From positions 1,451,001 through 1,515,000 of the forward strand of contig NZ_CP036266.1 in the NCBI RefSeq assembly GCF_007744075.1: a stretch of DNA of 64,000 nucleotides. The letters run 5' to 3'. The translations under genes were made by a program, and so were the position numbers. This document shows positions 59,724 through 64,000 of the stretch, one piece after another; the first letter of the stretch is position 1; every line of letters begins with the position of its first letter. This stretch comes from Gimesia chilikensis (GTDB lineage Bacteria > Planctomycetota > Planctomycetia > Planctomycetales > Planctomycetaceae). Under the pieces are notes generated by a model that saw nothing but the letters and a program-made list of their open reading frames with translations, did not search any database and was not told the DNA's origin.

Positions 59724-60137
59724 TTCCGGGGTTTGTTCTGCTGCCGGGTGTGTGCTCGTGTGTATATCTCCCTGGTGCTCGATGGGCATCCTGCTGCTCC
59801 CGGGGAGATTTCCCGGATAATTATTGATCTGGCAGTCGCGTCAGGCTTGAAAATCGCGCCTTGATTGTCTTGACTATCTCCTGTTGCCGGTACATTACTG
59901 GGTCAGAATAGTGTATGAATGTCTGCTTTCGTGGTTGAGCTGGGTTCAAGTCCAAAGCAGTCGCTCATCAGTTGGTCTCGGCGTCCTGAAAATCAGCAGT
60001 ATCAATCCCGGTATGAGGGTTTTTAGTGCTGAGGCAGGCAAAAGTCTTGTCTGGACCGGATTATCCTCTACGATGAAGTTACATTATTCACAAGCAGCCG
60101 GCATATTCGATTAGCGGGACTTTCAAAAGAGATTCAA
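59724..60137. other. Gap between fabF and the second ketosynthase gene, 414 bp
   Basis: Contains a stem ATCTCCC/GGGAGAT (about 59765-59811) with a long loop and no T-run, and a TTGACT at 59870-59875 followed after 17 bp by a poor -10 (CATTAC). A 76-codon ORF here has no family features. The downstream gene may have its own weak promoter. Confidence 0.45.
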
Positions 60138-61439
60138 ATGAATACAGAATCACGACGTCGAATTCTGATTACCGGGATGGGGATTCTCAGCCCGATCGGA
60201 ATTGGAACAGAAGCGTTTCAGGCCAGCCTGATGTCGGGGACTTCGGGCATTAAAAAATCAGAGCTGTATGAGTTTCTGGCAGCGCCAGACTGCTGCGTGG
60301 CTGAAGTCGCCGATTTCAATGACAGTACAATCAAAAAAGAGTATCTGAAGCAGCAGCGCAGAAGCCTCAAAGTGATGTGCCGCGAAATCCAGCTGGGAGT
60401 TGCTTCTGCGAATCTGGCGATGGATGATTCAGGGATTGACCTGGAAGCCGTCGACAGTGAACGTTTCGGGATTGAGTTTGGTGCGAACCTGATGCTCAGC
60501 CCTCCTGAAGTGCTTTACTCGGCCTGTATGGCCAGCACCGAAGGCACTGAGTTCCAGTACGAAAGATGGGGGTCAGACGGGCTTCCCAAGATGGAGCCGC
60601 TCTGGCTGTTGAAATATCTGCCGAACATGCCGGCCTGTCACATCGGAATCGTGATGGATGCCCGCGGTCCCAGTAACTCGATCACACAGGCTGAAGCGTC
60701 TGGGAATCTGGTGCTGGGTGAAGCTCAGCGGATCATCGAGCGTGACTGGGCAGATGTCATGGTCGCTGGTGTGACTGGGACCCGGATACATGAAGTCAAA
60801 TCGATCCACGCGAAGATGTGGGATGAACTGGCTGACTCTCCAGCAGATTTTTCTAAGCGTTCTCGTCCTTTTGATAAGGCACGCAATGGTCAGGTCGTGG
60901 GTGAAGCAGCCTGCTCCCTGTTGCTGGAAGAGAAGTCTCATGCTGAGAGGCGTGGGGCCAAGGTCTGGGGTGAACTGCTGGGGACTGGTGCTTCCTGTGT
61001 TGTTGGCCGGGATGGTATTCCCGATACCCGGACTTCGATTGCCAATGCCATTAAACTCGCGTTTAAGCGAGCTGGTGTCGAAGCAGGAGATATTGGTCAT
61101 ATCAATGCCCACGGTTTGGGTGATACCAAGCTGGATGTCGAAGAGTACCAGGCGATCTGTGACATCTTTGGTGACAAGGCGACAGAAATTCCGGTTACTG
61201 CCCTAAAGAGTTACTTCGGAAATTCCGGTTCTGCTTGTGGAATCGTGGAAGCCAGTGGTTCACTTGTGGGGCTGAAGCAGGGAGTGATTCCAGCGACATT
61301 AAACTACGAAACTCAGGATGCAGATTGTCCGTTGAATGTCGTTCGAAATGAACCGCAGCCGACCGACAATAAGCTGTTCCTGAAGATCAGTACCACGACT
61401 TTCGGCCAGGCCAGTGCCTCGGTTGTCTGTGGTGTCTGA
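60138..61439 (+). CDS. Ketosynthase-family protein lacking the catalytic cysteine
   Basis: 433 residues with the full thiolase-fold beta-ketoacyl synthase layout: RRILITGMGILSPIGIGTEA, DKARNGQVVGEAACSLLLEE, HINAHGLGDTKLD and the C-terminal TTTFGQASASVV. The nucleophile cysteine of TACASG is replaced by glutamate (Glu186 in ITQAEASG). The first histidine is kept (His325), but the second is asparagine (Asn362 in KSYFGNSGSACG); Lys357 is kept. It therefore cannot be a normal condensing enzyme. It resembles chain-length factors or decarboxylating KSQ-type proteins by logic, and could pair with FabF next door. A terminator follows directly. Confidence 0.9.
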   Translation: MNTESRRRILITGMGILSPIGIGTEAFQASLMSGTSGIKKSELYEFLAAPDCCVAEVADFNDSTIKKEYLKQQRRSLKVMCREIQLGVASANLAMDDSGIDLEAVDSERFGIEFGANLMLSPPEVLYSACMASTEGTEFQYERWGSDGLPKMEPLWLLKYLPNMPACHIGIVMDARGPSNSITQAEASGNLVLGEAQRIIERDWADVMVAGVTGTRIHEVKSIHAKMWDELADSPADFSKRSRPFDKARNGQVVGEAACSLLLEEKSHAERRGAKVWGELLGTGASCVVGRDGIPDTRTSIANAIKLAFKRAGVEAGDIGHINAHGLGDTKLDVEEYQAICDIFGDKATEIPVTALKSYFGNSGSACGIVEASGSLVGLKQGVIPATLNYETQDADCPLNVVRNEPQPTDNKLFLKISTTTFGQASASVVCGV

Positions 61440-61456
61440 ACTTGAATCAATCATTG

Positions 61457-61495
61457 AAAAAGCCCCGCCAGGATGATCCTGGCGGGGCTTTTTTT
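61457..61495. terminator. Bidirectional Rho-independent terminator
   Basis: AAAAAGCCCCGCCAGGAT pairs with ATCCTGGCGGGGCTTTTT as a near-perfect dyad; T-tracts lie on both sides. It serves the ketosynthase gene (plus) and the TPR gene (minus). Confidence 0.95.
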
Positions 61496-61514
61496 ATTGT
61501 CTTCTCAGGGGAAA

Positions 61515-62936
61515 TCAGAATTTCTTGAGTGCGTACTGTGCACCGCGGTAGGCGGACAGGTTGCGCATGCCGGTATTCAGTGACTGCTGGAAGTTCTGGG
61601 TGGCGGTTGCTGTGTCGCCGGCCAGCAGGGCTTTTTGTCCGATGAAGTAGTGTGCTTCACAGGTTTGTGCTTTAGCGCGTTGCGGGTCCTTCTGGTCAAT
61701 AGATTTGAGCAGGTCTGCTTCGGTCACGCCGCCCATCAGATATGCGGTGAGCATGTCGACCGAGTCGCGCGCTTCGGGTTTCTCGGCGAGGACTGTCTGG
61801 AATTTTGCGTCCGCTTCTGCTTTCTGGTTGTTGCGGACCATGGCCAGGTAGACCCAGGGGTTGAGGACCTTCATCTGATCCTGTGCCAGTTGAGTGGCCT
61901 GGTTGAACTGGGTCAGGGCTTCGTTGTAATTCTGGTTGAAGAAGTAGGAGAAGCCCAGGTCGGAGTGCAGGGCGGGGTTCTGTGGGTCGAGTTGCACAGC
62001 GCGGGTCTGGTCCTGTATGGCTTCGGCGATTTTCCCTTGCAGCAGGCGGGCTTCCCCACGCATTCCCAGTACAAAAGGCTGTTCAGGGGCGATCGAGAGG
62101 GACTTGCTCAGGTCTGCTTCTGCAGTGTCGGGTTTGCCCCCTTCCAGGTAGGCGAAGCCGCGGTTGGTGATGGCGTGGTGATAGTTGGGGTCGAGCTGAA
62201 TTGCCCGGGAGAAGTCATTGATTGCTTCCTGGAGCTTTCCCTGCTGCTGGTAGAACATCGCCCGGTTATTGTAGACCACGGGGGAATTGGGTTGTTTTTC
62301 GATGACCTGATTGAAGCTGGCCAGTGCCTGATCGTTTTCACCTGCCAGGGCGTAAGCGTCGGGCAGCGCGAGCAGGGCGGCGAAATGGTTTGGTGAGAGT
62401 TTGATGGTTTCTGAGAAGTCCTGTGCCGCTTCGCGGGGCTTGTTCAGAGGAAGATAAATCATGCCTCGCTGATAATGGAAGTTGGCGCGTTCCTCGGTGC
62501 TCAGGTTGGGGCGAGCCAGGACCTGGTTGGCCACATTCAGTGCTGTCTCGGCATGGCTTTTCTTGTTTTCCATGACGGCCAGGTTCATCATGCCGTACAG
62601 GTAGGGCAGGTAGTAATTGATGTTCTGGTTCTGGCTGTAGCGAATGGCTTCACGGGCATCACTGACACCTTCCCGGATCGTCTGGGTGTTTCCCTGTTCC
62701 CGACCTGATTCCACGCGGGCGCTGGCACGCAGGTAGTAGGCCACATGGTCGTCAGGCTTCTGCTGCAGCACCTGTGAGGCGAGTTGGACGGACTTGTTGT
62801 AGTCGCCCTGCTGCTGGGCCTGATCGGCCTGCATTTTCAGTTGAGCGAGTGGGTCGTTGGTGGTGGCGGTTGGTTGGGCTGCCGCGGCGAGGGGAAGCCC
62901 CAGGCAGAGGATCAGTGCAGGCAGTAAGCGAGCCAT
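61515..62936 (-). CDS. Exported TPR-repeat protein
   Basis: 473 residues. The signal peptide is ARLLPALILCLGLPLAAAA. About nine tetratricopeptide repeats follow, e.g. AYYLRASARVESGREQG, NFHYQRGMIYLPLNKPREAA, VYNNRAMFYQQQGKLQEAIN, HAITNRGFAYLEGGKPDTAE and LHSDLGFSYFFNQNYNEAL. TPR proteins scaffold protein complexes; this one should act in the periplasm. It is transcribed alone, with a possible promoter at 63039-63068, and ends at a bidirectional terminator. Confidence 0.9.
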   Translation of the reverse strand: MARLLPALILCLGLPLAAAAQPTATTNDPLAQLKMQADQAQQQGDYNKSVQLASQVLQQKPDDHVAYYLRASARVESGREQGNTQTIREGVSDAREAIRYSQNQNINYYLPYLYGMMNLAVMENKKSHAETALNVANQVLARPNLSTEERANFHYQRGMIYLPLNKPREAAQDFSETIKLSPNHFAALLALPDAYALAGENDQALASFNQVIEKQPNSPVVYNNRAMFYQQQGKLQEAINDFSRAIQLDPNYHHAITNRGFAYLEGGKPDTAEADLSKSLSIAPEQPFVLGMRGEARLLQGKIAEAIQDQTRAVQLDPQNPALHSDLGFSYFFNQNYNEALTQFNQATQLAQDQMKVLNPWVYLAMVRNNQKAEADAKFQTVLAEKPEARDSVDMLTAYLMGGVTEADLLKSIDQKDPQRAKAQTCEAHYFIGQKALLAGDTATATQNFQQSLNTGMRNLSAYRGAQYALKKF

Positions 62937-63038
62937 GGATGAGTTGTCCTTATTGAATTTCAGGCTTGATATTCAGATACTACAAACCCGGATCCGCAGA
63001 AAAAGGGTCGACGAATCCGGGAGTTCTCCTATGATACT

Positions 63039-63068
63039 ATGATAGTTTGACGTTTTGATGGAGATCAA
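63039..63068 (-). promoter_or_regulatory. Possible promoter for the TPR gene
   Basis: On the minus strand TTGATC (63068-63063), 18-bp spacer, TATCAT (63044-63039). It lies about 100 bp upstream of the TPR start codon. Moderate match only. Confidence 0.4.
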
Positions 63069-63233
63069 TTTCCGGCCATCCCCGGGATTTCGGAAAAATG
63101 GACGTATGACGTCCCTGATCCAGGATTTGGAAATTGTATCTGTGTGGTCTGGCCGATTGAACACTGATTCGCTGACTTTCTGGTAAGCGGAAGCGCTGAA
63201 GTTAAGTCGTTGTGAAATAGTTGCCTGCGGTGC

Positions 63234-63262
63234 TTGACATCTGAACGCGCGAAGATTAATTT
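63234..63262 (+). promoter_or_regulatory. Sigma-70-type promoter of the candidate RNA upstream of nusA
   Basis: TTGACA (63234-63239), 17-bp spacer, TAATTT (63257-63262). Transcription would begin near 63269, at the first base of a run of hairpins that ends in a terminator at 63565. Confidence 0.6.
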
Positions 63263-63268
63263 CTCAGA

Positions 63269-63565
63269 GTAGAGCATTAACCATGGTGCTCTATGCGCAA
63301 TGGTTTTGCATACTGATGTTCAGTAGGCATTGTGTTTGCAAGGGGTGACATGCCAGTTTGGCTGTTTGTTTCTTTGTGATGAATCGGCATTCGTAAACTC
63401 GAATGGAGTCCTCTCATATGTAGGCTGGTTGGAACTCGAGCATTTGCTCACCAATCCGATTGTCGCGTTTGCTGCATTGAAAAATGCCAATCGCGGCTAT
63501 GCCTGACTACCGTTTCTGCGGTGGTACGGGTAGTCATAAAGTGGGCATGTTCCCGCTTTTTTTTG
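63269..63565 (+). ncRNA. Candidate structured RNA of about 297 nt upstream of nusA
   Basis: No ORF of note occupies this stretch, yet seven hairpins follow one another: TAGAGCA/TGCTCTA (63270-63293); GCGCAATG/CATTGTGT (63295-63335) enclosing TACTGA/TCAGTA (63311-63325); CATTCG/CGAATG (63388-63405); GGTTGG/CCAATC (63427-63456) enclosing GAGCA/TGCTC; GATTG/CAATC (63458-63493) enclosing GCATT/AATGC; TGACTACC/GGTAGTCA (63505-63537); and a terminator. A promoter precedes and a T-run closes it. It could be an independent small RNA or a long nusA leader. I do not recognise tmRNA, RNase P RNA, SRP RNA or a known riboswitch. 6S RNA cannot be ruled out by eye. Confidence 0.55.
63539..63565 (+). terminator. 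Rho-independent terminator ending the candidate RNA
   Basis: AAAGTGGG pairs with CCCGCTTT (one G-T pair) around a six-base loop and is followed by a run of eight T. It lies 136 bp upstream of nusA, so nusA needs read-through or another promoter. Confidence 0.8.
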
Positions 63566-63700
63566 TTAATGGCCTGGCCATAAACCAGTTGAGTCCTCAG
63601 GGCTCAGTTGATAACAGATAGAAATATGACCGACAGCGGTCTTGTTTGAGTAGTTTTCGAGTCAGTTGAATTATCAACTGTCGAATGAAGGAAACACATT

Positions 63701-64000
63701 ATGGACGGTAAGGAAGTTCTCCGAATTGTTGATGCGATTCAACGCGATAAGAGCATCGATAAAGAGATCGTGTTCAGCGGGATTGAGCAGGCGATCCTGT
63801 CAGCGGCCCGCCGACACTTTGGGGATGATCAGGAATTGACGGTCGACATCGATCGTGAATCAGGCGAGCCAACCGTCTATTGTAATCAGGAACAGCTGGC
63901 ACAGGACATCCTGGGAGAAATCCTGGGACGTGTGGCAGCCCAGACGGCTAAGCAGGTGATGATTCAGAAGATCCGTGAAGCAGAACGCGATACGGTATTT
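63701..64000 (+). CDS. nusA: Transcription termination/antitermination factor NusA, N-terminal part
   Basis: The first 100 residues; the gene runs past the window end. The start [49 protein letters not shown] and the signature [20 protein letters not shown] identify the NusA N-terminal domain, which binds RNA polymerase. Compared with my memory of E. coli NusA, about 27 residues are missing between the DRESGE and AAQTAKQ motifs. No rimP gene lies upstream, although rimP-nusA is the common order. ATG 63701 follows a GAAGGAA site eight bases upstream. Confidence 0.93.

Follow-up and report, generated by a model that had tools for sequence, protein, structure and literature searches.

A start-stop minigene in the leader and candidate transcription attenuator of the nusA operon in Gimesia and its family

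In Gimesia, a stretch of about 300 nt upstream of nusA has the appearance of a structured RNA bounded by a promoter and a terminator. The original prediction placed two readings side by side, an independent small RNA or a leader that regulates nusA by premature termination, and raises the question of which of these the locus encodes and, if a leader, what it might sense. The analysis presented here points to the feature probably being the 5' leader and transcription attenuator of the nusA-infB-rbfA operon, in which ribosome loading would be sampled at a start-stop minigene. Coordinates throughout are positions within the window, i.e. the whole 64,000-nt stretch of DNA that was analysed, from a genome of 8.29 Mb.

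RESULTS

A Promoter and an Operon-specific Terminator Precede nusA

The gene upstream of the locus (61515-62936) encodes a TPR protein on the opposite strand, and the promoter is thus well placed to start the nusA operon. Between this gene and the convergent ORF at 60138-61439 (+ strand) lies a long, bidirectional-looking terminator of 18 pairs (61456-61494). The features of the locus itself are the following.

63203-63233, + strand: upstream box AAGTCGTTnTGAAATAGTTGCCTGCGGTGC, a candidate UP element or activator site
63234-63262, + strand: predicted promoter, TTGACA (63234-63239), 17-nt spacer and TAATTT (63257-63262), from the sequence
63272-63294, + strand: 5' hairpin of variable sequence (helix 1; double changes at 4 of 11 pairs in 17 sequences)
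63338-63461, + strand: Gimesia-specific conserved core (invariant helices 7-10; identity figures of 63331-63470)
63538-63564, + strand: intrinsic terminator AAAGTGGGCATGTTCCCGCTTT with T-run, similar to that of the rimP leader (hairpin 63538-63559), from the sequence
63628-63641, + strand: small hairpin GACCGACAGCGGTC between terminator and nusA, from the sequence, arms partly conserved in 17 loci
63656-63685, + strand: hairpin TTCGAGTCAGTTGA...TCAACTGTCGAA just 5' of the nusA ribosome-binding site, found by eye
63701-64000, + strand: 5' part of nusA (492 amino acids in all; Pfam NusA_N)

The promoter reads as originally described, and its two boxes, TTGACA and GATTAATTTC, are invariant in all 17 same-genus loci while the spacer is variable. 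Most of the 30 nt 5' of TTGACA are likewise invariant in these loci, and the upstream box is nearly so, although in the 11 more distant congeners identity over the enclosing region 63101-63233 is only 39-51%. The 5' end of the leader is expected near 63269. A consensus promoter scan did not return TTGACA-N17-TAATTT because TAATTT has just three of the six -10 consensus bases. In other genera, many units, extracted with a promoter-like word required, carry TTGACA and TATCGT-like -10 boxes, and both the promoter 9-mer TGCTTGACA and the terminator 9-mer CCCGCTTTT recur 5' of nusA at many loci beyond the genus.

The operon has the order nusA, infB, rbfA, with infB and rbfA lying beyond the window (Pfam NusA_N, IF-2 and RBFA). 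The first gene of this operon is usually rimP. RimP (RimP_N, PF02576) gave no match in the Gimesia genome at an E value of 0.001 and was present in 10 of 14 control genomes; a loss of RimP in the lineage would be worth mapping.

The predicted strong T-run terminator is confirmed by the hairpin and the T-run that follows it. The hairpin is identical in 15 of the 17 same-genus loci, with L010 and L014 each differing by one loop base. Of 59 genomes, 30 have the signature AAGTGGG-N(4-10)-CCCRCTTTTT, which by its coordinates lies at nusA and nowhere else in each of them, and the AAGTGGG-type signature has a single match in the 8.29-Mb Gimesia genome. A hairpin-plus-T finder that ignores the minigene described below located the terminator in 48 of 49 genera; the stem contains GTGGG or GCGGG in 45 of the 46 genera with a minigene site and AAGYGGG in 36. 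The T-run lies at a median of 121 nt from the nusA start codon and at 60 nt or less in 12 of 46 genera, where read-through is therefore the likely route to nusA. In Gimesia the terminator stands 136 nt before nusA, a gap that may leave room for another promoter, and the two hairpins within 63628-63685, the second of which has conserved arms and a variable loop in the 17 same-genus loci, could add a further control at the level of translation or conceal a second promoter.

The RNA Is Structured and Conserved within Gimesia but Is Not Found Outside It

The predicted unit, a structured RNA with promoter and terminator before nusA, is present in all 17 same-genus genomes, and its fold is more stable than that of shuffled sequences (z = -4.07, with 0 of 100 shuffles as good). 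Its hairpins do stand in series as proposed; the proposed number of seven does not stand, as 14 helices, with about nine hairpin loops, make up the same-genus consensus. Conservation of the RNA is above chance but uneven. Across the 11 more distant congeners (L008-L018) identity is 55-74% for 63263-63330, 76-94% for 63331-63400, 91-96% for 63401-63470, and 76-96% for 63471-63560; the first 300 nt of nusA are 79-84% identical and the spacers 63101-63233 and 63561-63620 are 35-51% identical. The core holds the hairpin CATTCG-TAAACT-CGAATG (63388-63405) and another hairpin 3' of the start-stop site.

Covariation was assessed on a structure derived from the same alignment, where double changes numbered 27 cells versus 12.8 in shuffles (0/500) and 11 pairs versus 7.4 (16/500), with no excess of further pair types (46 versus 47.7 in shuffles; 459/500). 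Alignment of the relatives thus bears out the unit, and the covariation support that it yields is modest and confined to the outer helices; the core, being without any variation, is uninformative on pairing.

No Rfam family matched at the gathering score in the whole window, and nothing relevant appeared over the locus at E values up to 10. The earlier statement that the RNA matches no family recognisable by eye holds for the Rfam models; it does not hold for the terminator, which resembles the published rimP leader as described in PMC2965389. We rejected 6S RNA (RF00013), the sole candidate in the genome (L112, G000:C1:6368288-6368470; 37.2 bits, E = 1.8e-5) lying elsewhere and below the cut-off of 46.4 bits, and also tmRNA or tRNA, as ARAGORN reported no genes in 60000-64000.

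Outside the genus the Gimesia core was not found by blastn or nhmmer, the nhmmer search with the Gimesia profile giving only short, weak, terminator-side matches (E = 0.012-0.074). A query of leader plus nusA was matched in 51 of 59 genomes, and beyond the genus only its nusA-side part matches; in its own genome the leader is present as a single copy. A ligand riboswitch with an aptamer conserved across genera was rejected, since the core was found only within Gimesia.

These data bear on the two original readings. A trans-acting small RNA of about 300 nt, for which the position before nusA would be incidental, would have its own promoter and strong terminator, as judged from sequence, and a structured core conserved throughout the genus, and a terminated RNA of 300 nt would indeed be made. 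Beyond Gimesia, however, it is the core that is not found while the promoter-terminator-nusA layout remains; conservation of the RNA apart from its neighbouring gene was not seen, 12 of 46 genera, with a T-run at most 60 nt from nusA, offer little space for a separate promoter, and what the genera have in common is a putative ribosome start site. We regard an independent small RNA as highly improbable. The other half of the prediction, a leader acting on nusA by premature termination, is better supported because the layout keeps its place 5' of nusA, because the 30 of 59 genomes with the terminator signature have it at no other place, and because T-run and gene are close together in 12 of 46 genera.

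A Start-Stop Minigene Recurs across the Family

The locus had been described as having no coding frame. This did not survive closer inspection, as the conserved core contains a frame of one codon preceded by a Shine-Dalgarno (SD) sequence, an arrangement that recurs across the family.

63405-63408, + strand: SD sequence GGAG of the minigene (purine peak at -12 to -9 across 46 genera)
63418-63423, + strand: start-stop minigene AUG UAG, with AUG at 63418-63420 and UAG at 63421-63423 (recurrence and frame test)

The stop is UAG in all 17 Gimesia loci, and the genus itself therefore offers no evidence of stop switching. An in-frame upstream ATG at 63403 would open a six-codon ORF (MESSHM); a coding reading of it is not favoured, since it lacks an SD sequence and its fifth codon varies between CAT, AAT, ATT, and GAT.

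To count the arrangement we took one locus per genus from 49 of the 54 genera of the genome-set family f1, presumably the Planctomycetaceae, the NCBI family of Gimesia (genera g7, g15, g17, g18, and g21 were left out). The counts were made on 47 of these, without L177, which has no terminator by the finder, and L031, for which the finder chose another, distal hairpin; an SD-like site with ATGTAG is visible in L177, and L031 has SD-ATGTAG at -172. L159, which has no site, is absent from the sets of 46 used for terminator words, pairing, spacing, accessibility, profile, footprint, and clustering. Within a window of 130 nt, 70-200 nt before the terminator, an SD-led ATG opening an ORF of at most five codons is present in 43 of 47 genera (mean 2.54 and maximum 8 in 1000 dinucleotide shuffles), SD-ATG-stop in 28 (mean 0.63, maximum 4), and ATG-stop irrespective of an SD sequence in 34 (mean 3.0, maximum 9). 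The reverse complement of the windows gave zero for all three counts, and 46 control windows 5' of the leader contained no ATG-stop, no SD-ATG-stop, and one SD-led ORF of five codons or fewer. The four genera that fail the short-ORF count are L159, with no SD-ATG, L149, with a nine-codon ORF, L030, where the ATG-stop lacks an SD sequence, and L166, where SD-ATG-stop falls at the window edge.

The position of the site is also restricted. When the region from -480 to 0 was divided into 40-nt bins, 25 of 27 SD-ATG-stop matches and 39 of 48 short-ORF matches fell 80-160 nt before the terminator, and the distance from minigene to terminator has a median of 113.5 nt (interquartile range 103.5-124.75, range 84-194, n = 46). 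The windows are otherwise unalike, with a mean identity of 0.50 in gapped alignment and 1 of 1035 pairs above 0.65, and when the 46 site-bearing windows were clustered at 60% identity, 43 clusters resulted, of which 40 were positive (40 of 44 if L159 is added). The site-anchored profile of the 46 genera consists of the SD sequence at -12 to -9, the ATG, the stop, and little else; most of the profile sites were chosen with an SD sequence, so the strength of the SD signal is partly built in, its position less so. At the level of sequence, the promoter, terminator, operon, and SD-led start-stop frame with its recurrence in the family are established as predicted features.

The start-stop hexamer also ranks above the remainder of the leader in accessibility (mean percentile 0.69, p = 5e-5, n = 46), which counts in favour of an attenuator that samples ribosome loading. 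Such accessibility would equally suit a ribosome that parks at the start-stop site and shields the leader from nucleases or Rho, and there is a precedent in the two-codon mini-ORF of axe-txe, described in PMC8708949 as acting in cis and possibly protecting mRNA. Protection alone does not, however, account for the spacing to the terminator, and as an explanation of the site we find it improbable.

A Stop in Frame Is Largely Retained, Whatever Its Type

The codon that follows the 48 SD-led ATGs is TAG in 11 cases, TAA in 9, TGA in 8, and TGG in none, a pattern that speaks for a stop codon rather than an RNA word URR. Among relatives sharing the context ATG-stop-GCATTGGC, eight loci picked by hand have the stop TAG (five), TAA (one), or TGA (two). 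The 18 genera that have an SD-ATG and yet no SD-ATG-stop in the window were used for a frame test, in which the SD-ATG nearest to -115 was taken whatever its ORF; a stop within four codons was found in frame in 15 (among them L166, the start-stop at the window edge) and in the other two frames in 2 and 3. A second ATG-stop closes the short frame in L027, L147, L148, and L161. L148, L151, and their relatives carry a minigene of four codons, ATG GAC AAG ATG TAG or ATG GGC AAG ATT TAG, which in this group is enclosed, as judged by eye, by a hairpin GAAATGG...CCATTTC.

Amino-acid-specific or release-factor-specific attenuation is known from the trp and prfB leaders, and a tiny ORF before a terminator is reminiscent of it. 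Here, however, a second codon is absent in 28 of 47 genera, codons vary among the longer ORFs, and all three stops are used; with neither codons nor stop type conserved, sensing of an amino acid, or of RF1 or RF2 specifically, is unlikely, and we find this kind of attenuation barely credible. Since an ORF of one codon has no elongator amino acid to sense and every stop is used, the common input would be initiation together with general release and recycling.

The Terminator Extends beyond the Family

In other families of the phylum we examined 81 loci from 42 families with the same finder. A terminator was present in 24, of the AGTGGG type in 13, and SD-ATG-stop was found in the window in one of the 24 (L183, in a G-run). 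A plain scan of the last 520 nt in 61 of the 81 loci returned few ATG-stop words; in L221 (family f10) an AGGG...ATGTAG lies closer to the terminator, outside the tested window. With AGTGGG terminators in 13 of the 24 loci and SD-ATG-stop in one of the 24, the terminator looks old and the minigene mainly a feature of f1. In three loci of family f11 (L179, L186, and L194) the leader is shorter and carries a promoter-like TTGACA and a terminator of the GCCGGC type, with 118-134 nt between its T-run and nusA; these loci contain no SD-start-stop in the tested window and look like a different termination leader on the same operon.

This distribution also speaks for an account in which NusA alone recognises the conserved terminator stem and represses its own operon, the minigene serving something else, e.g. 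RNA stability. Such feedback has been proposed for the rimP leader (PMC2965389), and it fits a terminator signature specific to nusA that precedes nusA in families where the minigene was found once. The genome in which RimP is undetectable keeps the terminator, which points away from RimP as the regulator and argues for NusA as the partner. NusA alone leaves unexplained why 43 of 47 genera keep an SD-led frame of one to five codons whose distance to the terminator varies rather little, and we consider this account, taken by itself, rather unlikely.

Folding Does Not Link the Minigene to the Terminator

No antiterminator was found, a result that also sits well with NusA acting alone: the 5' arm of the terminator pairs with upstream RNA to an extent of 0.73, versus 0.70 in shuffles, with no consistent partner across the 46 genera. 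In Gimesia, as judged by eye, GCUCAC 3' of the start-stop could pair with the terminator's GUGGGC; the predicted fold of L002 does not contain this pairing. A modelled ribosome footprint at the site changed the upstream pairing of the terminator 5' arm by -0.048, versus -0.031 at random places (p = 0.73), so neither coupling of the minigene to the terminator nor its direction is supported by folding. At the median distance of 113.5 nt a stationary ribosome would not touch the terminator, and alternative folding or a physical coupling via NusG/NusA would be needed. A 30S initiation complex coupled to a paused RNA polymerase has been seen by cryo-EM, as reported in PMC12820379, which makes such coupling conceivable.

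DISCUSSION

From these elements we propose the following course of events for an attenuator that samples ribosome loading. RNA polymerase would start near 63269 and produce a structured leader of about 300 nt before meeting the intrinsic terminator at 63538-63564, such that nusA would be reached from this promoter only by read-through. The GGAG at 63405 would bring ribosomes to the AUG-stop at 63418-63423, where a ribosome would initiate and, without elongation, undergo release and recycling. Its presence about 113 nt 5' of the terminator would lead to more or to less termination; our committed guess is that efficient initiation favours termination and poor initiation read-through, and that direct action of NusA at the terminator provides a second feedback. 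Translation of the site, its effect on termination, and the signal that is sensed are what we infer from the arrangement. Initiation (30S, IF2, and fMet-tRNA) is the likely input, and IF2 and the 30S maturation factor RbfA are both products of this operon.

The closest relative in working is the rimP leader (Naville and Gautheret 2010, PMC2965389), presented there as the most ubiquitous transcription attenuator, with a terminator signature specific to rimP-nusA-infB, no visible antiterminator, NusA as the favoured regulator, and the signal left open. The Gimesia leader shares with the description in that paper the intrinsic terminator with a GGG...CCC stem in the 5' UTR of nusA-infB, the operon-specific signature, and the lack of a visible antiterminator. 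It differs in that the operon starts with nusA, there being no rimP, in the distance from terminator to gene (136 nt versus the 4-130 nt given in PMC2965389), and in its long leader, which carries an SD-led minigene; the account of the rimP leader in PMC2965389 mentions no larger conserved element. The Rfam covariance model RF01770 did not match the locus and gave only matches of E = 1.0 and 2.8 elsewhere in the genome; of the published GGGc(...)gCCC motif, GGG...CCC is present, while the inner c-g is absent in Gimesia (GGGCATGTTCCC) and often shifted in other genera. For these two reasons we liken the Gimesia leader to the rimP leader in its working and do not class it as one. In Escherichia coli, metY-rimP-nusA-infB is likewise described with terminators 5' of the first protein gene and a link to initiator tRNA and initiation (PMC6511841), although by that description it has rimP, and an initiator tRNA gene where Gimesia has the start-stop ORF.

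Start-stop sites themselves have been described in other settings. Ribosome profiling of Campylobacter jejuni, as reported in PMC11955535, which also cites E. coli work, yielded 18 putative start-stop sites, internal and out of frame, where an initiation codon is likewise followed by a stop at once or nearly so; in the present case the site is found in the leader of one operon and throughout a family. The AUGUAA upstream ORF of Arabidopsis NIP5;1 is similarly a one-codon ORF at which ribosome stalling controls the gene, but it belongs to a plant, where, according to PMC11915504, the effect of boron runs via the termination factor eRF1 and decay of the mRNA. At the AUGUGA termination-reinitiation sites of E. 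coli a stop right after a start also alters the next step of the ribosome; the choice described in PMC9841429 is, however, between the starts of overlapping protein genes, and would fit only the UGA versions seen here. The axe-txe minigene of two codons shares with the Gimesia site a tiny ORF that acts through ribosome occupancy, but in the description of PMC8708949 there is no terminator or nusA and the effect is ascribed to RNA protection.

The two-codon minigene bar of phage lambda also acts through ribosome occupancy, with sequestration of tRNA and no terminator or nusA. Start-stop sites and minigenes are thus already known individually. Among the papers listed by our searches of open-access literature on start-stop ORFs, minigenes, nusA/rimP leaders, and planctomycete transcripts we found no description of a start-stop ORF or minigene in an attenuator, and none of a family-wide conserved one in a nusA-operon attenuator.

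More tentatively, and as a possibility that falls short of being probable, the start-stop ORF might be a dedicated sensor of initiation capacity, coupled via a NusA-responsive terminator to the operon for IF2, RbfA, and NusA throughout the family. That a genome in which RimP is undetectable keeps both the terminator and the start-stop site points to ribosome initiation and NusA as the inputs. The site would then be a frame-tested regulatory start-stop ORF conserved across a bacterial family and, if this reading is true, part of an attenuator whose input is initiation as such, whatever the amino acid or the type of stop codon.
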